Shown here one piece after another: positions 251 to 11,353 of a stretch of DNA of 11,353 nucleotides. A model generated the notes under the pieces. It was not told the origin of the DNA. It worked only from the letters and a program-made list of their open reading frames with translations, and did no database searches. Origin of the DNA: Brevundimonas sp. (lineage in GTDB: Bacteria; Pseudomonadota; Alphaproteobacteria; Caulobacterales; Caulobacteraceae); NCBI RefSeq assembly GCF_031082345.1, contig NZ_JAVHLH010000071.1:1-11353 (forward strand), written 5' to 3'. Numbering within the stretch: position 1 is the stretch's first letter; every line of letters begins with the position of its first letter. Both the position numbers and the translations under genes were made by a program.

Positions 251-313
251 GCGGGAAGACTATGCGTCCGCGCCGCACTTGTCGCGCCCGGATCGAGGTT
301 GTAGGCGCCGATC

Positions 314-841
314 ATGACCGAGCCCCTGATCCGCCCCGCAGTCGACGCCGACGCCGAAGCCCTCGGCGTGCTGGGGCGACAGACCTTCATCGACACCTTC
401 GTGGACGGGTTCGCCATCCCCTACCCGGCCGACGACCTGAAAACCTTCCTCGACGCCAGCTTCAGCGCCGAGACGATCCGCGCCAAGCTGAAGGAGCCGG
501 GCGCGGCCTGGTGGGTGGCCGAGCGCGACGGCGAACTGCTGGCCTTCGCCAACACCGGGCCGAACACCCTGCCCCATCCGGACGCCCGGCCCAGCCACGC
601 CGAGCTGCGGCGGCTGTATGTGTCGAAGGGGGCGCAGGGGCTGGGGCTGGGCACGAAGCTGCTGGCCGTGGCCCTGGAGTGGATGGAGGCGCACACCGAC
701 GGGCCGCTGTGGATCGGGGTGTGGAGCGGCAACCTGAAGGCGCAGAAGCTGTATGCGGCCTACGGGTTCGAGAAGGTCGGCGAGTATCAGTATCCGGTGG
801 GCGACTGGCTGGACGACGAGTTCATCTTGCGGCGCGGCTGA
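314..841 (+). CDS. GNAT family N-acetyltransferase
   Basis: A 175-residue protein with the complete GNAT fold. It should transfer an acetyl group from acetyl-CoA to an amine on a small molecule or protein N-terminus. The acetyl-CoA pyrophosphate loop (motif A) is LYVSKGAQGLGLGTKLL at about 101-117, with the Q/R-x-x-G-x-G/A pattern as Q108, G111 and G113. Motif B follows as N140, then KLYAAYGFEKVGEYQY at 145-160. The N-terminus (TEPLIRPAVDADAEAL) is the usual first strand and helix of a single-domain enzyme, and the length is normal for the family. It is the first gene of a plus-strand run; the VWA protein gene starts 20 nt after its stop, so the two are probably co-transcribed. The substrate cannot be told from sequence. 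Confidence 0.9.
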   Translation: MTEPLIRPAVDADAEALGVLGRQTFIDTFVDGFAIPYPADDLKTFLDASFSAETIRAKLKEPGAAWWVAERDGELLAFANTGPNTLPHPDARPSHAELRRLYVSKGAQGLGLGTKLLAVALEWMEAHTDGPLWIGVWSGNLKAQKLYAAYGFEKVGEYQYPVGDWLDDEFILRRG

Positions 842-861
842 GCCGGGCTCAGGTTAGGTCG

Positions 862-2040
862 ATGCTCCTGCCCTTCTTCACCGCCCTGCGCGACGCGAAA
901 GTGCCCGTGTCGATGAAGGAATGGCTCCATCTGATGGAGGCCATGGACAAGGACGTGGCGGGGCGGAAGGTCGACGACTTCTACCACCTGTCGCGGGCGG
1001 TGCTGGTCAAGGACGAGAAACACTACGACCGGTTCGACCAGGTGTTCGGCAAGGTGTTCGCCGGGATCGAGACCGTGGGCGCGGGCGAAGAGCCGGCGCT
1101 GGACGTGCCCGAGGACTGGCTGAAGCTGCTCAACGAGAAATATCTGACCGACGAGGAGAAGGCGCAGATCGAGGCGCTGGGCGGGTTCGACAAGCTGATG
1201 GAGACGCTGAAGCAGCGGCTCGAGGAACAGAAGGGCCGGCACGAGGGCGGCAACAAGTGGATCGGCACCGGCGGGACCAGCCCGTTCGGCCACGGCGGCT
1301 ACAATCCCGAGGGCGTGCGGGTCGGCGGGCCGGGCAAACAGGGCCGGGCGGTCAAGGTGTGGGAGAAGCGCGAATACCGGAACCTGGACGACCAGGTCGA
1401 GCTGGGCACGCGCAACATCAAGGTGGCCCTGCGCCGCCTGCGCCGGTTCGCGCGGCAGGGGGCGCCGGACGAGCTGGACATGGACGCCACCATCGACGGC
1501 ACGGCGCGCCAGGGCTGGCTGGACATCCATATGCGGCCCGAGCGGCGCAATACGATCAAGGTGCTGCTGTTCCTCGACATCGGCGGCTCGATGGATGCCC
1601 ATGTGAAGATGTGCGAGGAGCTGTTCTCGGCCGCGAAGACCGAGTTCAAACATCTGGAATTCTTTTACTTTCACAACTGCCTCTATGAGGGCGTGTGGAA
1701 GGACAACCGGCGTCGGCACAGCGAGAAGATCCCGACCTGGGAGGTGCTGAACAAATACCCCGGCGACTGGCGGGCCATCTTCGTCGGCGACGCGACCATG
1801 AGCCCCTATGAGGTGACCATGCCCGGGGGCTCGGTCGAGCACTGGAATGAGGAGGCCGGCGCGGTCTGGCTGAAGCGGGCGACGCAGCAGTGGGACAAGG
1901 TCGCCTGGCTGAACCCGTCGCCGGAACGCTACTGGAGCTATTCGGCCTCGGTCGGGATGATCCGCGAACTGGTCGACGAGCGGATGTATCCGCTGACCCT
2001 GGACGGGCTGGAGAAGGCCATGCGGGCGCTCGCCAAATAG
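862..2040 (+). CDS. VWA domain-containing protein, CoxE family
   Basis: A 392-residue protein starting at ATG 862. The open frame continues upstream to 262, but that part overlaps the GNAT gene in another frame and is not protein-like. The N-terminal half (about 1-130) is helical and charged (PFFTALRDAKVPVSMKEW at 4-21). A glycine-rich linker follows at about 129-165. The C-terminal half is a von Willebrand A domain whose metal-ion-dependent adhesion site reads DIGGSM at 239-244, giving the D-x-G-x-S pattern. This matches the CoxE-type VWA family, whose members usually work with a MoxR-type AAA+ ATPase as a chaperone or metal-insertion pair. It is cytoplasmic, with no signal peptide or membrane helix. 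No MoxR ATPase gene adjoins it here, which is less usual. The family call is strong; the client protein is unknown. Confidence 0.88.
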   Translation: MLLPFFTALRDAKVPVSMKEWLHLMEAMDKDVAGRKVDDFYHLSRAVLVKDEKHYDRFDQVFGKVFAGIETVGAGEEPALDVPEDWLKLLNEKYLTDEEKAQIEALGGFDKLMETLKQRLEEQKGRHEGGNKWIGTGGTSPFGHGGYNPEGVRVGGPGKQGRAVKVWEKREYRNLDDQVELGTRNIKVALRRLRRFARQGAPDELDMDATIDGTARQGWLDIHMRPERRNTIKVLLFLDIGGSMDAHVKMCEELFSAAKTEFKHLEFFYFHNCLYEGVWKDNRRRHSEKIPTWEVLNKYPGDWRAIFVGDATMSPYEVTMPGGSVEHWNEEAGAVWLKRATQQWDKVAWLNPSPERYWSYSASVGMIRELVDERMYPLTLDGLEKAMRALAK

Positions 2041-3936: not shown

Positions 3937-5310
3937 TCAGAGATCGAAGGCCAGACGCGCGCGTACGCCGGCGTAATCCGGATCGTATTCGACCTTCGAC
4001 CCCAGCCCCGCGGCCAAGGCGGAGACGATCCTGCCGCCCAGGCCGGTGCCCTTGGGCTTGGCGTCGCCGAGGCCGGGACCGTCGTCCTCGACCGTCAGCA
4101 GGGCGCGGCGGGCCCGGGCGTCCGGCTCGAGACGGATGCGGATCTCGCCGCCCTGACCCGGGCGGTAGGCGTATTTGACGGCGTTGGTGACCAGTTCGGC
4201 GACGATGACGCCGATCGAGACGGCCTGGTCGGTCGAGACATTCAACGGTTGCGCCTGCAGCGACAGGGTCGGGGCGCCGGCGCCGGGGGCGAGGGACTGG
4301 CCGAGTTCGGCGACCAGCCCCTCGAGGTATTCGTCCATGGCCACCGAGGTCATGTCGTCGGAGGTGTAGAGGCGGCGATGGACGTGGGCCACGGCCTCGA
4401 TGCGGGCCTGGGCCTCCTTCAGCGCCGAGCGGGCGCCGTCGTCGGCGAGGTGCCGCAACTGCAGCGACATGAAGCTGGACACCAGCTGCAGCGAATTGCC
4501 GACGCGGTGGTTGACCTCGCGCAGCATGGCCTCGGCCCGGTCGCGGGCGAGGGTCAGCTGAGCGGTGCGGTCGCGGACCTGGGTTTCGAGCCCGGCGTTC
4601 ATCCGGTCCAGCGTGTCGCGCGCTTCCTGGATCTCGCCGATGTAGCGGCGAACCAGCCAGATCATGATACCGGCCAGCACCACCACCAGCAGTCCGCCGA
4701 GCGCATTGGCCCACAGGGTCAGCCCTGAGCCGTACTCCGACTGGCGGGTGCGCGACTCGAGGCGAACCATCTCGATCTCGTCGATGGCGCCGATCTGCGC
4801 CCGGATCGTATCCATCAGCGCCCGCCCCTGGCCCGAGCGGACCAGCTGGACGGCCTCGCCGATCCGGCCGGTGCGGGACAGGGCGACCGATCGCTCCAGC
4901 TCCGCCAGCTTGTCGCGCGAGGCCTCGAGCATGACGGCGACGTGCGCCTCCAGCTGGGGATCGCCGGCCGTCAGCCGCTCCAGTTCGGCCATCTGCTCCG
5001 GTACGGAGGTTTCGGCGCGATTGTAGGGGGCGAGGAATTCCGGACGACCCGTCAGCAGGAAGCCCCTCTGGCCGGTCTCGGCGTCGACCAGCGATATGAG
5101 CAGGGCGCCGGCCGCCCCGCGCACCTGTTGCGACCGCTCGACCTGGTCGTTGAAGGCGACGGTGCGCTGAATCATGACGAAGGTCGCCACGTTCACCGCC
5201 AGCAGCAGCAGAATGGCGCCCGCCAGCAAGGTCACGATCGACCGCCCGATGCTGGGGGTCCGCGCGAACCGGAGCAGGGCGGGCAGGGACGGGCGGACAG
5301 CCGAAAACAT
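3937..5310 (-). CDS. Membrane sensor histidine kinase, CHASE3-HisKA_2-HATPase
   Basis: A 457-residue inner-membrane kinase. A first membrane helix (about 24-48) and a second (about 198-222) bracket a periplasmic helical CHASE3-type sensor domain with the typical VDAETGQRGFLLTG segment (75-88). A coiled-coil region (about 224-260) leads to a dimerisation domain with REVNHRVGNSLQLVSSF at 264-280, where H268 is the expected phosphoacceptor. This is the HisKA_2 type. The ATP-binding domain has an N box (ELVTNAVKYAY, 372-382), a G1 box (EDDGPGLG, 408-415) and a G2 box (GTGLGGRIV, 421-429). The W-x-E signature of the related HWE kinases is absent. HisKA_2 and HWE kinases often feed the PhyR/EcfG general stress pathway in Alphaproteobacteria, but no regulator gene adjoins this one. 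The ligand is unknown. The start at 5310 places the first helix correctly. Confidence 0.9.
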   Translation of the reverse strand: MFSAVRPSLPALLRFARTPSIGRSIVTLLAGAILLLLAVNVATFVMIQRTVAFNDQVERSQQVRGAAGALLISLVDAETGQRGFLLTGRPEFLAPYNRAETSVPEQMAELERLTAGDPQLEAHVAVMLEASRDKLAELERSVALSRTGRIGEAVQLVRSGQGRALMDTIRAQIGAIDEIEMVRLESRTRQSEYGSGLTLWANALGGLLVVVLAGIMIWLVRRYIGEIQEARDTLDRMNAGLETQVRDRTAQLTLARDRAEAMLREVNHRVGNSLQLVSSFMSLQLRHLADDGARSALKEAQARIEAVAHVHRRLYTSDDMTSVAMDEYLEGLVAELGQSLAPGAGAPTLSLQAQPLNVSTDQAVSIGVIVAELVTNAVKYAYRPGQGGEIRIRLEPDARARRALLTVEDDGPGLGDAKPKGTGLGGRIVSALAAGLGSKVEYDPDYAGVRARLAFDL

Positions 5311-5416: not shown

Positions 5417-6130
5417 ATGAATATGGTTTGGTGGTGGTGGATCGCGCCGGCGCTGGTCGCGCTGATCGGACTGGTGCTGTTGTTCCGGGGCCTGGCCGCC
5501 CTGTTCAAGGGACGGTTCTTCGGCGGCCTGCTGGGGGGCGTCGGGGGCGCGGGCTTCATCGCCGCGGCCATGATCGCGGCCCTGCTGGGCCTGGACGTCC
5601 AGACCTATTCCCGCCTGACCTACGAGCGCCCGGTGGCGACCATCGAGACCCGCCAGCTGGGCCCGCAGTACTATGAGGCCACAGTGATGCAGCCCGCCCG
5701 CGGCGAGGACGTCCCGGCGGTCAGCAACCTGTATCCGCTGCACGGCGACGAGTGGCGGATCGAGGCCCAGGTGCTGAAGTGGAAGCCGTGGGCCAATGTT
5801 CTGGGTCTGGATACGCAATACCGGCTGGACCGGCTGTCGGGCCGCTACAGCTCGATCGAGCAGGAGATCAACGCCGCGCGCAGCGTGCACCCACTGACCG
5901 GCGGGGACGCCGGCCCGAGCTGGCTGCCGTGGAGGGTCAGCGCCTGGGACACGGCCCGGAAATACCGCCATCGCGTCGACGCGGTCGACACCCTGTACGG
6001 CGGCGGCGCCTATATGCCGATGGCCGACGGGGCCAAATACGAGGTCTGGATCACCCAGTCGGGCCTGATCGCCCGTCCCGCCAACGACGCGGCGCGGGAA
6101 GCTTCGGCGGGGGGGTGGACCACCCAATAG
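5417..6130 (+). CDS. Uncharacterised membrane protein with two N-terminal helices
   Basis: A 237-residue protein. The N-terminus begins MNMVWWWWIAPALVALIGLV and forms a first membrane helix (about 5-29). A glycine/alanine-rich second helix follows (about 35-58). The remaining 175 or so residues are a soluble domain starting TYSRLTYERPVATIETRQLG, with a conserved-looking core WRIEAQVLKWKPWANVLGL (112-130) and YRLDRLSGRYSS (133-144). I have seen similar proteins called cation/multidrug efflux pump in annotations, but two helices do not support a transporter and I do not assign that role. The start has GGGAG shortly upstream. The gene is divergent from the kinase gene and convergent with flhA, separated from it by 31 nt holding a hairpin. 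It is clearly coding; function unknown. Confidence 0.8.
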   Translation: MNMVWWWWIAPALVALIGLVLLFRGLAALFKGRFFGGLLGGVGGAGFIAAAMIAALLGLDVQTYSRLTYERPVATIETRQLGPQYYEATVMQPARGEDVPAVSNLYPLHGDEWRIEAQVLKWKPWANVLGLDTQYRLDRLSGRYSSIEQEINAARSVHPLTGGDAGPSWLPWRVSAWDTARKYRHRVDAVDTLYGGGAYMPMADGAKYEVWITQSGLIARPANDAAREASAGGWTTQ

Positions 6131-6161: not shown

Positions 6162-8279
6162 TTACACCGTCCCGATGGTCCTGAGCCGGGCCTTGGGGTG
6201 GACCTCGTTCTGGCTCATCACCACCGTCTGGCCGCGGAAGCGTTCGATGATCGAGCGGACGTAGGGGCGGACCTGCGGGCCGGTCAGCAGGACGGCGGTC
6301 TCGCCGGCCATGGCGGCGCGTTCGAACACGTCGCGGACGGCGCGGATGAAGTCCTGCAGTTTCGACGGCGCCATGGCCAGCTGCTTGTCCTCGCCCTGCC
6401 CCACCAGGGCCTCGGCGAAGGCCTGCTCCCAGTCGGGCGACAGGGTGACGATCGGCAAGGCCCCGTCGTCGCCCTTGTGCTGCCAGCACAGTTGGCGCGC
6501 CAGGCGGGCGCGGACGTGCTCGACCAGCAGGGTGACCGACGAGGTGTGCGGCGCCGCCTCGGCGAGGCCCTCCAGAATGGCCCCGAGGTCGCGGATCGAG
6601 ACCTTTTCGCGGAGCAGCGACTGGAGCACCCGCTGCAGGGTGGTGACGGTGACCACCGAGGGGATCAGCTCGTCGACCAGCTTCTTCTCTTCCGGGCCCA
6701 GTTCCTTCAGCAGCTTCTGCACCTCGGCGTAGGAGAGCAGTTCGGCCATGTTCTCCTTGAGGATCTCGGTCAGATGGGTGGTCAGCACCGTCGACGGATC
6801 GACGATGGTGTAGCCGCGGAAGGTGGCCTCCTCGCGCAGGCTCTCGTCGATCCAGGTCGCGGGCAGGCCGAAGGCGGGTTCCCGGGTGTGTTCCCCGGGC
6901 AGTTCGACCTGGCGACCGGCCGGATCCATGGCCATCAGCGAGCCGAGGCGGACCTCGCCGGCGCCCGCCTCCATCTCCTTGATGCGGATGGCGTAGCCCT
7001 GGGTGCCGAGGCGCATGTTGTCGAGGATGCGCACCGACGGCATGACGAAGCCGTACTCCTGGGCCAGCGAGCGGCGCAGGGCCCGCACCTGGTCGGTCAG
7101 GCGCCGGCCCTCGAGGTCGTTGATCAGCGACAGCAGGGAATAGCCGAGCTCGATCTTGACCTCGTCGATGGTCAGGGCGGTGCCGATCGGCTCCTCGACG
7201 TCCTCCTTGGGACCGGAGGCGGTGGCGGCCATCTCGGCCTCGCTCGGCTTGGGCTTGAGGCGATTGCGGCCGAGGCGCCAGGCCATGAAGCCGGTTCCGA
7301 TGGCCAGGGCCGCGAACGGCAGCAGCGGCATGCCGGGGATCAGGCCGATCAGGCCGGCCGCGCCGGAGACGACGCCGAGGCTGACCGGATTGGTGGCCAG
7401 CTGGGCGACCAGGGCCTTGTCGGCCGTGCCCTCGACGCCCGCCTTGGACACCAGGAAGCCGGCGGCGATGGAGATGACGATGGCCGGGACCTGGGTCACC
7501 AGACCGTCGCCGATGGTCAGGGAGACATAGGAGTTGGCCGCCTCGCCGATCGGCATCTGGTGCTGGACCACGCCGATGAGAATGCCGCCGATGACGTTGA
7601 TGAAGACGATGATCAGACCGGCGACGGCGTCGCCGCGGACGAATTTCGAGGCGCCGTCCATGGCCCCGAAGAAGGTCGATTCCTGCTCCAGCTCCTTGCG
7701 CCGGCGCTTGGCGCCCTCCTCGTCGATCAGACCGGACGACAGGTCGGCGTCGATGGCCATCTGCTTGCCCGGCATGGAGTCGAGGGTGAAGCGGGCCGAG
7801 ACCTCAGCGATGCGGGTCGAGCCCTTGGTGATGACCACGAAATTCACCACCAGGATGATGGCGAAGATGATGATGCCGATGATGAAGCTGCCGCCCATCA
7901 TCAGCGCGCCGAAGGCCTCGATCACCTGACCGGCGCCGCCCGAGCCCTCGTGGCCGTGGCTGAGCACCAGCCGGGTGGAGGCCAGGTTCAGGCCCAGCCG
8001 GAACAGGGTCGAGACCAGCAGGACGGTGGGGAAGATGGCGAAGTCCAGCGGCTTCTTCATCATCACCGCGGTCATCAGGATCAGCACGCTGGAGACCAGC
8101 GACAGGGCGAGCAGCATGTCCAGCAGGAAGGTCGGGATCGGCAGGATCAGCAGCAGGATGACGCCGATGACGCCGATGGCCATGCCGACCTCGCCGCGCG
8201 CGACCCAGCCCATCATGTCGCGCCCGGTCGGACGGGCCATGCCGTCCTTCATCATGGTCGAGGCGGGGATGTCGGTCAT
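6162..8279 (-). CDS. flhA: FlhA, flagellar type III export gate protein
   Basis: A 705-residue protein, normal for FlhA. It forms the nonameric ring in the inner membrane that couples proton flow to export of flagellar subunits and docks chaperone-substrate complexes. About eight membrane helices occupy roughly 30-340. Between them lies the FHIPEP family signature, RIAEVSARFTLDSMPGKQM at 156-174 followed by AIDAD, and a conserved DGASKFVRGD segment at 208-217 containing the family's essential aspartate. The C-terminal part (about 345-705) is the cytoplasmic substrate-docking domain. The ATG at 8279 overlaps the TGA of the beta-lactamase gene (ATGA), and there is no purine-rich Shine-Dalgarno upstream, so translation probably depends on coupling. 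The flagellar rather than injectisome paralogue is indicated by the neighbouring fliN and flbD. It is the last gene of the operon, ending at the hairpin at 6133-6155. Confidence 0.97.
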   Translation of the reverse strand: MTDIPASTMMKDGMARPTGRDMMGWVARGEVGMAIGVIGVILLLILPIPTFLLDMLLALSLVSSVLILMTAVMMKKPLDFAIFPTVLLVSTLFRLGLNLASTRLVLSHGHEGSGGAGQVIEAFGALMMGGSFIIGIIIFAIILVVNFVVITKGSTRIAEVSARFTLDSMPGKQMAIDADLSSGLIDEEGAKRRRKELEQESTFFGAMDGASKFVRGDAVAGLIIVFINVIGGILIGVVQHQMPIGEAANSYVSLTIGDGLVTQVPAIVISIAAGFLVSKAGVEGTADKALVAQLATNPVSLGVVSGAAGLIGLIPGMPLLPFAALAIGTGFMAWRLGRNRLKPKPSEAEMAATASGPKEDVEEPIGTALTIDEVKIELGYSLLSLINDLEGRRLTDQVRALRRSLAQEYGFVMPSVRILDNMRLGTQGYAIRIKEMEAGAGEVRLGSLMAMDPAGRQVELPGEHTREPAFGLPATWIDESLREEATFRGYTIVDPSTVLTTHLTEILKENMAELLSYAEVQKLLKELGPEEKKLVDELIPSVVTVTTLQRVLQSLLREKVSIRDLGAILEGLAEAAPHTSSVTLLVEHVRARLARQLCWQHKGDDGALPIVTLSPDWEQAFAEALVGQGEDKQLAMAPSKLQDFIRAVRDVFERAAMAGETAVLLTGPQVRPYVRSIIERFRGQTVVMSQNEVHPKARLRTIGTV

Positions 8280-9178
8280 GCGCGGCCGAGGCGTTTCAGC
8301 GCGAGGCGGGCGGCCTCGGCGATGACGGCGTCGTTCCGGGCGGCCGGGGCGTCGCGCGTGGCGTGATAGTAGGCGGCGACGATCACCGGCGAGCCGGTCG
8401 GCGGGTAAAGCACCCCGATGTCGTTGGTCGGACCGTAGCCCCCGGTGCCGGTCTTGTGCGCCACCCGCCAGCCGCCCGGAACCCCGGCCTTGAGCCGGTC
8501 CGCCCCGGTCGGCGAGTCGACCATCCAGCGCAGCAGGATCGCCTTGTGTTCCGCCGAGAGCGGCGTGGCCGGATCGACCAGCAGACGCTCCAGATTGGCC
8601 GCCGAGCTCAGGGGCGTGATGGTGTCCTTGTCGCCATCCAGCCGGTTCATCTCGGGTTCGAAACGGTCCACCGTGGTGCTGTCGTCACCAAGTGAGCGGT
8701 AGAAGGCCCGCATCGGCTCCAGACCGCCCATGGCCTTGAGCAGCAGGTTGGCGGCGGGGTTGTCGCTGACCTCGACCGCGCCCTTCATCAGGGCCTCGAC
8801 GCTCAGGGCGCCGCCGACGGCGGGCTCGGTCACCGGGGCGTGGTGGGTCATGTCAGCGGCGGTGACGGGAATCCGGCGATCCAGCCGTTCCTCCCCCGCC
8901 TGCACCCGCAGGAAGGTGGCGGCGGCGAGAAACATCTTGAAGGTCGAGCAGTAGACGAACCGCTCGTCCCCGCGCCAGGCCAGGCGGCGACCCGTGCCGG
9001 CGTCATGGGCGACGAAGCCCAGACGGCCGCCGTTCTCACGCTCCAGCGCGGACAGGTCGAAGGCTTCGGGCGGGGTCGGCGCCTGCGCCGGCGGGGCGGG
9101 CTCGGCGCGGACGCAGCCGGCGACGCCCAGGGCGCCGAGACCGGTCAGGACGCTTCTGCGGTCCGTGGATCGGGTCAT
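8276..9178 (-). CDS. bla: Class A beta-lactamase inside the flagellar operon
   Basis: A 300-residue serine beta-lactamase. All active-site motifs are present: S78-T-F-K81 (Ambler 70-73), S138-D-N140 (130-132), E174-P-E-M-N178 (166-170) and K242-T-G (234-236). It should hydrolyse beta-lactams in the periplasm; the spectrum cannot be read from sequence. The N-terminus, DRRSVLTGLGALGVAGC, has a twin-arginine pair, a hydrophobic stretch and a lipobox-like VAGC with C22, so it may be a Tat-exported lipoprotein. A cysteine precedes the catalytic serine (C77), but its carbapenemase disulfide partner at Ambler 238 is a glycine. The omega loop has six residues between N178 and D185, two fewer than in TEM or KPC. 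The gene starts 2 nt after the flbD stop and overlaps flhA by 4 nt, with no Shine-Dalgarno. Base composition looks like its neighbours, so there is no sign of recent transfer. Confidence 0.95.
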   Translation of the reverse strand: MTRSTDRRSVLTGLGALGVAGCVRAEPAPPAQAPTPPEAFDLSALERENGGRLGFVAHDAGTGRRLAWRGDERFVYCSTFKMFLAAATFLRVQAGEERLDRRIPVTAADMTHHAPVTEPAVGGALSVEALMKGAVEVSDNPAANLLLKAMGGLEPMRAFYRSLGDDSTTVDRFEPEMNRLDGDKDTITPLSSAANLERLLVDPATPLSAEHKAILLRWMVDSPTGADRLKAGVPGGWRVAHKTGTGGYGPTNDIGVLYPPTGSPVIVAAYYHATRDAPAARNDAVIAEAARLALKRLGRA

Positions 9179-9180
9179 GG

Positions 9181-10575
9181 TCAGGCGGCCGCGTAGCCGG
9201 ACGAGGCCACGCCCGACTGCGGGGCGGGGATGCTGGTCCCCTCGTCGGCGTATTCGTTGAGCTTGTTGCGCAGGGTGCGGATCGAGATGCCGAGGATGTT
9301 GGCCGCATGGGTGCGGTTGCCGAGGCAGTGCGACAGGGTGTCGAGGATCAGCGTCTTCTCCATCTGCGCCACGGTCTGGCCGACGTGGGCGCGGGTGACG
9401 GCGTCGGCGACGTGGGCGGCGCGTCCGGCCACCCCCGCGTCGACGGCGGCGCCGTGGCTGCCGGCGCTGAGCGGCTGGCCGTCGGGCAGACGGATGGCCT
9501 CGACGTCGATCTCGGGTCCGACCGCCAGCAGCACGGCGCGGTGCATGGCGTTCTCCAGCTCGCGGACGTTGCCGTTCCAGCGGTGCGAGACCAGCGCGCG
9601 CTTCGCATCGGCCGAGATCGGCTTGACCGGCACGCCGTTGGCGGCGGCGTATTTGCGCACGAAGTGATCGGCCAGCACGGCGATGTCGCCCGGCCGCTCG
9701 CGCAGGGCCGGCAGGCGCAGGTTCACGACGTTGAGGCGGTACAGCAGATCCTCGCGGAACGTCCCCTCGCTGACCGACCGGGCCAGGTCGCGGTTCGAGG
9801 TGGCGATGATGCGGATGTTGACCGGCACCGGCTTGGTGCCGCCGACACGGTCGATGACCCGCTCCTGGATGGCGCGCAGCAGCTTGGCCTGCAGGCGCAC
9901 GTCCATCTCCGAGATTTCGTCGAGCAGCAGGGTGCCGCCGTCGGCCTCCTCGAACTTGCCGATGCGGCGGGCCATGGCGCCGGTGAACGATCCCTTCTCG
10001 TGACCGAACAGTTCGGACTCCAGCAGATTGTCGGGGATGGCGGCGCAGTTGACGCTGATGAAGGGCCGGTCGGCGCGCTTGGACCCGGCGTGCAGGTAGC
10101 GGGCCATGACCTCCTTGCCGACGCCGCTTTCACCGGTGATCAGGATCGAGGCCTCCGAACGGGCCACCTGGTCGGCCAGCTGGATGACGGCCTTCATCGA
10201 CGGATCGGCCGAGATCAGCGGGCGCTCGTCGTCGGCGACGGCCGACAGCACGGCGGCGATCAGATCGGCCTCGGGCGGCAGGGGGATGAATTCCTTGGCC
10301 CCGGCGCGGATGGCGTTGGCCGCATCGGTCGCATCGGCGTCGACGCCGCACGCCACCACCGGCACGTGGATGCGCTCGGCCTCGTTGGCCGCGATCAGGG
10401 CGGCGATGTCGACGCGGTAGTCGACCATCAGCAGGTCGGCCCCCTGCCCGCGCCGGAGCTGTTCCGTCGCCTGGTCGCCGCGCTCGACGTGGCTGACCTT
10501 GGCGCCGTGCGCCATGGCCATCTTCACCGCCGTCGCCAGCTGTCCGCTGAGCCTGCCAACCACCAGAAGCCGCAT
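9181..10575 (-). CDS. flbD: FlbD, sigma54-dependent flagellar transcription regulator
   Basis: A 464-residue NtrC-type activator. The N-terminal receiver (1 to about 115) is degenerate. D52 (LLMVDYR) is kept, but the usual acidic pair near residues 8-13 is replaced by VGRLSG, and the lysine near 100 is missing (EFIPLPPEADL). This agrees with Caulobacter FlbD, whose activity is set by the partner FliX rather than by ordinary phosphotransfer. The AAA+ domain (about 122-350) has Walker A GESGVGKE (148-155), the sigma54-contacting loop GSFTGA (195-200, variant of GAFTGA), Walker B LLLDE (216-220) and the arginine-finger region FREDLLYRLN (273-282). A Fis-type helix-turn-helix, ANILGISIRTLRNKL (425-439), binds ftr elements. 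It activates late flagellar operons and represses early ones. The start has AGGAG 7 nt upstream and lies 36 nt after the fliN stop. Confidence 0.95.
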   Translation of the reverse strand: MRLLVVGRLSGQLATAVKMAMAHGAKVSHVERGDQATEQLRRGQGADLLMVDYRVDIAALIAANEAERIHVPVVACGVDADATDAANAIRAGAKEFIPLPPEADLIAAVLSAVADDERPLISADPSMKAVIQLADQVARSEASILITGESGVGKEVMARYLHAGSKRADRPFISVNCAAIPDNLLESELFGHEKGSFTGAMARRIGKFEEADGGTLLLDEISEMDVRLQAKLLRAIQERVIDRVGGTKPVPVNIRIIATSNRDLARSVSEGTFREDLLYRLNVVNLRLPALRERPGDIAVLADHFVRKYAAANGVPVKPISADAKRALVSHRWNGNVRELENAMHRAVLLAVGPEIDVEAIRLPDGQPLSAGSHGAAVDAGVAGRAAHVADAVTRAHVGQTVAQMEKTLILDTLSHCLGNRTHAANILGISIRTLRNKLNEYADEGTSIPAPQSGVASSGYAAA

Positions 10576-10582
10576 CGGTCTT

Positions 10583-10587
10583 CTCCT
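10583..10587 (-). promoter_or_regulatory. Shine-Dalgarno of flbD
   Basis: AGGAG on the minus strand, 7 nt before the flbD ATG at 10575. It shows that flbD has independent translation initiation, in contrast to the beta-lactamase and flhA cistrons that follow without such a site. Confidence 0.7.
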
Positions 10588-10611
10588 CTAATCTCTACGC
10601 TCGTCGCCGGA

Positions 10612-10944
10612 TCAGGCGCCGCTGTCTTCCGTCTTGATGATTTCCGTCATGGTCACGCCCAGACGGTCCTCGACCACCACCACCTCGCCGCGGGCGACCA
10701 GGCGATTGTTGACGAAGATGTCGATCGCCTCGCCGACCTTTCGGTCCAGCTCCAGCACCGAGCCGCGGTTCAGCTTCAGCAGCTGGGCCACGGACATGTG
10801 CGCCTTGCCGAGCACGGCCGAGATGTTGACCGGCACATCAAAAACCGGGGCCAGGTCGCTGGCGCTCTTGTCGGTCGCCTCGTCGTTGACGGTGATCGCG
10901 GTGGAGTCGGCGAACTCCTCCAGGGCCATGGTGTCGGACGCCAT
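10612..10944 (-). CDS. fliN: FliN, flagellar motor switch protein
   Basis: A 110-residue protein. The variable, acidic N-terminus (1 to about 30) is followed by a SpoA/surface-presentation domain (about 33-105). It contains the family pattern VPVNISAVLGKAHMSVAQLL (37-56), then LNRGSVLELDRKVGEAIDIF and ARGEVVVVEDRLGVTMTEI. FliN forms the lower part of the C-ring, takes part in switching the rotation sense, and docks FliH with its export cargo. The length fits the short single-domain FliN type. The ATG at 10944 overlaps the stop of the upstream fliH-like gene as TAATG, and a strong Shine-Dalgarno, AAGGGAGG at 10957-10950, lies 5 nt upstream. The gene order fliH-fliN-flbD is that of the Caulobacter fliF operon. 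Confidence 0.95.
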   Translation of the reverse strand: MASDTMALEEFADSTAITVNDEATDKSASDLAPVFDVPVNISAVLGKAHMSVAQLLKLNRGSVLELDRKVGEAIDIFVNNRLVARGEVVVVEDRLGVTMTEIIKTEDSGA

Positions 10945-11353
10945 TACGGCCTCCCTTCCATTGTCGGTTCAGGGGTGAGGGTGTCAGCGTGGCCGGCTTC
11001 GGCGGCGAGGGCCGAGTCGAGCGCCTCGCGCATGCGGGCGAAGGCGGCTTCGGGCTCGAAGGCGGCGCGGCCGTCGGCCCATTCCAGCTGGAAGGCGGCG
11101 GGCGGCGCGCCCGGCTCCTCGCGGAAGGCCACCACGCCCGAGAAGCCGGCGTCGGCGCACAGCCGTTCGATGCGGGCGCGGTTGGCGTCGTCGAGCTCGC
11201 CGGCGCGGATGACCAGACGCGGCGAGGAGTCGATCTCCTGGCCGAGGGCCTCCAGCGCCGCCTGCAGTTGCTCGAGGCACCGCTTCCGCAGCGGACGGTT
11301 GGTCGACCAGTCGGTCGTGTCGAATGCCAGGCGCGCCGCGGCGATCGCGCGGT
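10944..11353 (-). CDS. fliH: FliH/FlbE-type flagellar assembly protein, C-terminal part
   Basis: About 135 C-terminal residues are visible; the start lies beyond the window edge. The reading frame runs open from 11353 to a TAA at 10946-10944. The translated segment includes LEQLQAALEALGQEIDSSPR, LVIRAGELDDANRARIERLC and FQLEWADGRAAF. This layout of amphipathic helix, beta strand and helix is that of the C-terminal domain of FliH-like proteins. FliH binds the export ATPase FliI and carries it to the C-ring through FliN. The assignment rests mainly on position directly before fliN and flbD, where Caulobacter carries flbE, since this family is weakly conserved. The tail (ADTLTPEPTMEGRP) is variable. 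TAATG overlap with fliN indicates coupled translation. Confidence 0.8.
   Translation of the reverse strand, partial: RAIAAARLAFDTTDWSTNRPLRKRCLEQLQAALEALGQEIDSSPRLVIRAGELDDANRARIERLCADAGFSGVVAFREEPGAPPAAFQLEWADGRAAFEPEAAFARMREALDSALAAEAGHADTLTPEPTMEGRP

Follow-up and report, generated by a model that had tools for sequence, protein, structure and literature searches.

Why should a flagellar operon contain a beta-lactamase gene? Chromosomal beta-lactamases are usually viewed as drug-inducible enzymes or as standalone constitutive ones. The contig NZ_JAVHLH010000071.1 of a Brevundimonas genome (assembly GCF_031082345.1, referred to as G000), whose 11,353 nucleotides (nt) constitute the window analyzed here, carries an intact class A beta-lactamase gene, bla, between the flagellar regulator gene flbD and the flagellar export gene flhA, a position that we call the slot. 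We consider it probable that bla encodes the chromosomal, exported class A enzyme of Brevundimonas, and that the gene is an old passenger, without a regulator of its own, of a CtrA-driven flagellar operon.

The identity and setting of the gene agree with the first-pass annotation of the window, which had described an intact class A beta-lactamase gene starting 2 nt past the flbD TGA and sharing four bases (ATGA) with the flhA start; family scores, open reading frame (ORF) and motifs confirm the former and the coordinates the latter, the gene lying on the minus strand. The product scores 265 bits against the NCBIfam class A beta-lactamase model NF033103 (cut-off 200) and 144 bits against Pfam PF13354, and it matches class A enzymes of the PDB at E values down to 2e-75. 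bla also has the layout of an internal cistron: it is encoded on the same strand as its two neighbors, overlaps them or is separated from them by a few nt, and neither a terminator pattern nor a sigma-70-type promoter pattern occurs between flbD and flhA.

In a sample of 121 genomes of the genus, including the window's own (genus g1, taken as Brevundimonas), matches to bla were found in 114, to flhA in 119 and to flbD in 116. All 114 bla copies lie within 0.7 kb of flhA and/or flbD (coordinates compared by eye), the few that adjoin only one of the two being cut off by a contig end. bla is flanked by flbD and flhA matches in 44 of the 53 named loci, among them those of B. alba, B. vesicularis, B. 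bacteroides, B. huaxiensis and B. halotolerans. Three genomes without a bla match (G018, G040, G101) have a locus broken by contig ends, while four others (G042, G097, G105, G110) carry flbD and flhA on one contig with 69–127 nt between the matches. Directly past the flbD stop of G110 and G097 (loci L100 and L098), the bla start and the twin-arginine codons are retained; a six-frame pattern search of the four bla-less loci found bla start remnants at these two places only, and they look like deletion scars. No scar was seen by eye in G042 and G105. Because the order flbD–bla–flhA recurs in 101 loci with distinct sequences, an assembly error at the junctions, raised initially as a possible refutation, is ruled out. 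Single genomes of the genus carry distant second copies: a class A beta-lactamase-like gene outside the slot (40% identity; G109:C1:3197275-3198093) and an FlhA-like protein (37% identity; G120:C11:478951-480933).

The arrangement also occurs beyond the genus. Our family sample comprised 159 genomes from 22 genera (26 genomes of g1 and 133 others), with matches defined by E ≤ 1e-25 for bla, E ≤ 1e-120 for flbD and E ≤ 1e-150 for flhA. By coordinates compared by eye, bla lies between flbD and flhA in 13 of the 133 non-g1 genomes, representing seven genera (g5: G124; g6: G156, G250; g10: G129, G145, G157; g12: G131, G158; g13: G132; g19: G138, G161, G176; g21: G205), of which G145 lacks flbD, G157 lacks most of flhA (contig end) and G176 has partial neighbor matches. 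The slot copies of these other genera show 36–50% identity. The flbD–bla–flhA arrangement is a family-level trait, present in 8 of the 22 sampled genera, and not the oddity of a single genome. A class A bla match was found in 59 of the 133 genomes, in 46 of them outside the slot. In five g14 genomes (including L179, L180, L181 and L183) the gap between flbD and flhA measures 0.4–5.8 kb and can hold other genes, such as one for an antisense DUF2809 protein (L179) or for a diacylglycerol kinase directly past flbD (L181).

In an order-level sample of 180 genomes, bla matches (E ≤ 1e-25) were found in 36 genomes from other families, 33 of which also have an flhA match (E ≤ 1e-150). The two genes are close on one contig in none of the 33, the nearest pair being about 61 kb apart (G328), with a junction possible in the many drafts that have split contigs. 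In the 20 of the 36 loci that were fetched, the surroundings of bla out to about 2 kb contain no match to flbD or flhA, some of these stretches being shortened by contig ends. Among the genomes sampled, the slot is known only from Caulobacteraceae. The comparison of flbD–flhA junctions proposed in the first-pass annotation has in this way extended the arrangement to eight genera, without revealing the order-wide distribution that the proposal had allowed for, and the idea of an old insertion captured without breaking the operon is supported by this span.

How often bla entered the slot was addressed with trees. In the tree of FlbD plus FlhA (55 rows; L090, with no flbD on its stretch, was left out, and the short rows L091, L092, L063 and L066 were kept), the slot is found in each of the three main branches, a distribution that requires 12 changes. 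The simplest reading is a single old placement followed by repeated loss or relocation: bla would have entered the slot in an ancestor shared by much of the Caulobacteraceae, and since then it would have been kept under purifying selection or, in particular lineages, lost or moved. The bla tree itself speaks against this history. When the tree was left free (eight hand-picked genus rows; L091, L092, L149, L159 and L161 left out), the slot label needed five changes and a single slot clade appeared in 0 of 200 bootstrap trees; several exchanges of bla between lineages are possible. One slot clade was not rejected (approximately unbiased test, p-AU 0.056), and under a single placement slot copies may well be paraphyletic in the bla tree, because relocated copies would make them so.

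Class A beta-lactamases are often mobile, and the gene might on that ground be a recent mobile arrival that landed in the operon. The distribution in practice excludes such an origin: the bla copies of the genus form one clade with support 100 (L070, L134 and L129 left out, then every second genus row used), and the same slot is occupied in eight genera. Furthermore, no mobile-element family was found among the window ORFs tested, and the G+C content at third codon positions (GC3) is host-like (0.90 for bla, against 0.92–0.95 for fliN, flbD and flhA), so that bla appears to be a resident gene.

The four catalytic motifs reported at first pass are intact in the window, and the catalytic residues, numbered in the Ambler scheme, are kept across the slot copies. 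Ser130, Asn132, Glu166, Asn170, Lys234, Thr235 and Gly236 are present in all 101 aligned copies, and Ser70 and Lys73 in 100, the exception being a frame-broken draft copy. Pairwise ratios of nonsynonymous to synonymous substitution (dN/dS) of 0.07–0.23 in six pairs indicate that the protein is kept under purifying selection, and we predict that it has beta-lactamase activity. The N-terminus of the window protein combines a twin arginine, a hydrophobic stretch and a lipobox cysteine, as expected of a lipoprotein exported by the twin-arginine translocation (Tat) pathway; the Arg-Arg pair is aligned in 97 and the cysteine in 86 of the 101 slot copies. The product would thus be a Tat-exported, lipidated enzyme that destroys beta-lactams in the periplasm.

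The junctions on both sides of bla are tight. The distance from flbD to bla is −26 to +20 nt in 82 of the 87 genus loci with a usable start, the remaining five (68–203 nt) being partly broken or start-misassigned copies. In other genera, all 12 loci have a distance of −23 to +4 nt. When the flhA start closest to the bla stop is taken in each locus, the distance from bla to flhA is −8 or −4 nt in 72 of the 87 genus loci (0 to 60 nt in the others, with one of 662 nt); in the other genera, the genes overlap by 4 or 8 nt in 6 of 11 loci and are −8 to −1 nt apart in 7 of 11. In L054 and L056, the flhA start that aligns with that of the window is 138 and 147 nt away, respectively. These junctions fit stop–start coupling, by which bla would be translated following flbD. 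The lack of a recognizable Shine-Dalgarno sequence before bla and flhA, noted at first pass, stands for the window, where none was seen by eye, but not as a rule for the genus: 21 of 94 bla starts and 37 of 98 flhA starts have a Shine-Dalgarno-like 4-mer, compared with 16% of random positions. Given these counts, we rejected the lack of this sequence as proof of coupling.

A further claim, that flhA is in turn coupled to bla and that disrupting bla would reduce FlhA, found no support. Coupling to bla does not appear to be required for flhA, since flhA is intact in four genus genomes without bla, where 47–60 nt lie between the two genes, and in L068, from a draft Brevundimonas genome, where an antisense HicB/HicA-like toxin–antitoxin pair (PF15919, PF07927; L068:4429-5040, minus strand) separates them. 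The same evidence bears on the view that the main present role of bla is translational, with ribosomes that finish bla feeding flhA and the enzyme mattering little. The prevalent 4- or 8-nt overlap with flhA in the genus and the absence of a visible Shine-Dalgarno sequence at the flhA start of the window would suit it; however, flhA persists after bla loss and across intervals of 47–60 or 662 nt, and the low dN/dS values and intact catalytic residues would be hard to reconcile with a dispensable enzyme, which makes this role very improbable. In L087 (genus g13), the bla–flhA gap of about 400 nt is filled by an antisense ORF whose product has glycine-rich repeats and looks, by eye, like a glycine-zipper protein.

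We found no BlaI/AmpR-type gene beside the window bla, whose upstream neighbor, 2 nt away, is flbD and not the divergent LysR regulator that marks PenR/AmpR-inducible systems. The family does contain such pairs, with a related enzyme: in 11 of the 46 non-slot genomes (from g22, g3 and g9; six viewed in full), bla is divergent from a LysR gene within about 200 nt, and the best NCBIfam model of this gene is PenR (419 and 424 bits in the two tested, under the 625-bit exception cut-off). Unlike these, slot copies have no adjacent LysR gene. PenR-like regulators (E ≤ 1e-85) were detected in 28 of the 159 family genomes, in some without a class A bla beside them, but in none of the 26 genus genomes; in 2 of the 13 non-genus slot genomes (G129, G161) there is one, on another contig. 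PenR pairing as the ancestral state was considered and is unsupported, as a PenR-like match was found in none of the 20 stretches fetched from the 36 bla-bearing genomes of other families. With no PenR/AmpR regulator beside bla in the slot, expression of the slot gene would be drug-independent and set by the early flagellar programme.

Outside the slot, bla repeatedly rides with unrelated genes in this family: other copies begin a few nt past dxs in G187 (g6), past an MFS transporter gene in G123 (g4) and past an S9 peptidase gene in g14 (two checked). Of the 19 family genomes without a match to either flbD or flhA, several of them incomplete drafts, 10 have a class A bla match (E ≤ 1e-25), which disfavors a flagellar function. 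Such a function had been raised at first pass, as coordination with peptidoglycan remodeling during flagellum assembly. The enzyme might serve flagellum assembly or polar peptidoglycan remodeling, its place in the operon reflecting what it does. The retention of the slot in eight genera would be consistent with this, as would an operon expected to be on when the basal body is built. We nevertheless regard it as improbable, because bla is absent from four genus genomes with flbD and flhA, at four separate places in the tree, because it occurs with unrelated genes or a PenR-like gene elsewhere and in flbD/flhA-less genomes, and because its class A catalytic set is intact.

What transcribes bla was approached through the gene order of relatives. 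Six related genomes (L204–L209), of which one is bla-less, share the order fliF, fliG, a gene in the fliH position, fliN, flbD, (bla), flhA. Pfam confirmed FliF, FliG and FliN in L205 and FliF in L207 and L208, the remainder being assigned by position and length; the automatic ORF list of L204 misses fliN. CtrA-controlled early flagellar operons are marked by CtrA boxes, with the consensus TTAA-N7-TTAA, and in five loci a CtrA-type box with 0–1 mismatch is found 50 to 83 nt upstream of the listed fliF start (0.0015–0.0075 expected per 210 nt). In L206, a CtrA-type box at 4046 precedes by 62 nt an in-frame start (4108) assumed to be that of fliF, and in G000 one lies at −82 of fliF, which is on a separate short contig. 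CtrA is predicted to bind upstream of fliF, and the box supports transcription of bla with the early flagellar programme, most likely from the fliF promoter of a fliF-fliG-fliH-fliN-flbD-bla-flhA operon. The tie to the flagellar and cell-cycle programme proposed at first pass is thus backed by this box and by the lack of an adjacent AmpR/BlaI-type gene, with co-transcription as its conditional part.

Several observations weigh against transcription from fliF. In G000, the fliF promoter is on another contig (C192), linked to the bla contig through the gene order of relatives. A sigma-70-type pattern (9 of 12 positions; 0.1 expected), the only one in window positions 8000–11353, lies at 10987–10960 on the minus strand, just before fliN, and could start an internal transcript that reaches bla. 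The sigma-70 pattern has little power in this group, and bla may also be preceded by a hidden promoter. Finally, an internal constitutive promoter is suspected for Caulobacter crescentus blaA, according to PMC13046382.

bla might therefore be driven mainly by its own promoter or by another constitutive one inside the operon, located before fliN or within the 3' portion of flbD, and so be uncoupled from the flagellar programme; constant expression benefits resistance genes. Even with the blaA precedent we find this unlikely. No sigma-70-type pattern lies between flbD and flhA, so the separate strong promoter that was named initially as a possible refutation did not appear, within the power of this weak test. 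Among 72 stretches, each of 60 nt, upstream of fliN matches in other loci (located by tblastn, partial matches included), only 4 have a pattern similar to that before fliN in the window. Across the 101 loci, scanned over a stretch that begins 300 nt ahead of the flbD stop and ends 60 nt past the start of the flhA match, there was no excess of full CtrA boxes (≤1 mismatch; 2 found, 1.6 expected) or of sigma-54 patterns (≤3 mismatches; 967 found, 1108 expected), and both were rejected as internal promoters. The 8-base CtrA half box (1 mismatch) was found 36 times against 17.4 expected; among the half-box matches listed, most lie 314–345 nt past the flbD stop, inside bla, and we read the excess as coding conservation. 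Nor did reduced synonymous variation point to a hidden promoter at the flbD or bla ends: near the end of flbD, fourfold-site homozygosity (mean 0.675) is 0.71 and then 0.64 in the final two complete windows, and 0.56 over the last 20 codons. One terminator-like pattern lies inside fliN (1.0 expected).

With transcription from the fliF promoter as the preferred reading, bla is most likely a passenger that benefits from dependable transcription, and a stable enzyme would be present at a near-constitutive level over the whole population. It is a possibility, held only tentatively, that in Brevundimonas and no fewer than seven further genera CtrA acts through the fliF operon to time the synthesis of the beta-lactamase, so that the enzyme is made in the predivisional phase, resistance is gated by the cell cycle and the early flagellar programme takes the place of antibiotic sensing.

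The nearest analogue of the flbD–bla–flhA arrangement is C. crescentus blaA, likewise a chromosomal beta-lactamase gene within an unrelated housekeeping operon of the same bacterial family. According to PMC13046382, the enzyme encoded by blaA is a metallo-beta-lactamase, and ampicillin does not induce the promoter of the five-gene operon for methionine synthesis to which blaA belongs; the window bla, in contrast, is of class A and lies in a flagellar operon, and it is for blaA that an internal promoter is suspected. In C. crescentus, CtrA switches on early flagellar genes, among them those encoding FlbD and the MS ring, and fliF is repressed by FlbD at a later stage (PMC3930126). The relevant passages mention no beta-lactamase, in contrast to the operon studied here.

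Within the genus, B. brasiliensis has a class A beta-lactamase of 299 aa, penP, listed as a resistance gene (PMC10269605); penP is likely the slot gene, and the terms flhA and flbD are absent from the main text of that paper. The relevant passage of a review of Brevundimonas resistance (PMC8347278) is silent on the slot bla. No published description of the arrangement was found in open-licence PubMed Central texts.

Features of the window are collected in the table. flhA is taken as the last gene of the operon because a convergent ORF comes next. The fliH/flbE name of the gene upstream of fliN is positional, as in L205, whose fliH-position protein has no Pfam match. Elsewhere in the window, a histidine kinase with CHASE3 and HisKA_2 (HWE-like) domains is encoded close to the flagellar operon (3937-5310, minus strand), and a 592-aa ORF with a CoxE-like von Willebrand A domain (262-2040, plus strand) has a weaker codon-position GC pattern than the flagellar genes. 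Rfam and tRNA scans of the window were empty.

Table. Coordinates of the bla locus and its elements in the window
Feature	Position	Strand	Basis or remark
bla, class A beta-lactamase, intact	8276..9178	minus	300 aa; NF033103, Pfam PF13354, PDB matches
Export signal at N-terminus: twin arginine (residues 7-8), lipobox cysteine (residue 22)	9113..9178	minus	translation
STFK motif (Ser70, Lys73)	8936..8947	minus	translation and alignment of slot copies
SDN motif (Ser130-Asn132)	8759..8767	minus	translation and alignment of slot copies
EPEMN motif (Glu166, Asn170)	8645..8659	minus	translation and alignment of slot copies
KTG motif (Lys234-Gly236)	8447..8455	minus	translation and alignment of slot copies
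flbD stop/bla start junction, TGA-CC-ATG	9176..9183	minus	2-nt gap
bla stop/flhA start overlap, ATGA	8276..8279	minus	4 nt
flbD, sigma-54-dependent flagellar regulator	9181..10575	minus	FlbD NF050807, 804 bits (cut-off 750)
flhA, flagellar export gate protein, last gene of the operon	6162..8279	minus	TIGR01398, 913 bits (cut-off 772)
fliN, flagellar switch protein	10612..10944	minus	TIGR02480, 101 bits
3' part of gene upstream of fliN, fliH/flbE position	10944..11351	minus	open frame, GC3 0.90; exceeds the window
Convergent ORF, 237 aa, no Pfam family	5417..6130	plus	GC3 0.91; bounds the operon 3' of flhA

A whole genus, some members of which occasionally infect people, appears to run a class A enzyme from a flagellar promoter under cell-cycle control, in an arrangement old enough to span genera at 36–50% protein identity. 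If this is true, the level of resistance would depend on CtrA, FlbD and the state of the flagellar checkpoint, and flagellar mutants could alter resistance; if the gating is true as well, resistance would vary with the swarmer or predivisional state and with flagellar checkpoint mutations. The occurrence of slot, PenR-linked and relocated copies in one family offers a natural series for how resistance genes lose their regulators.

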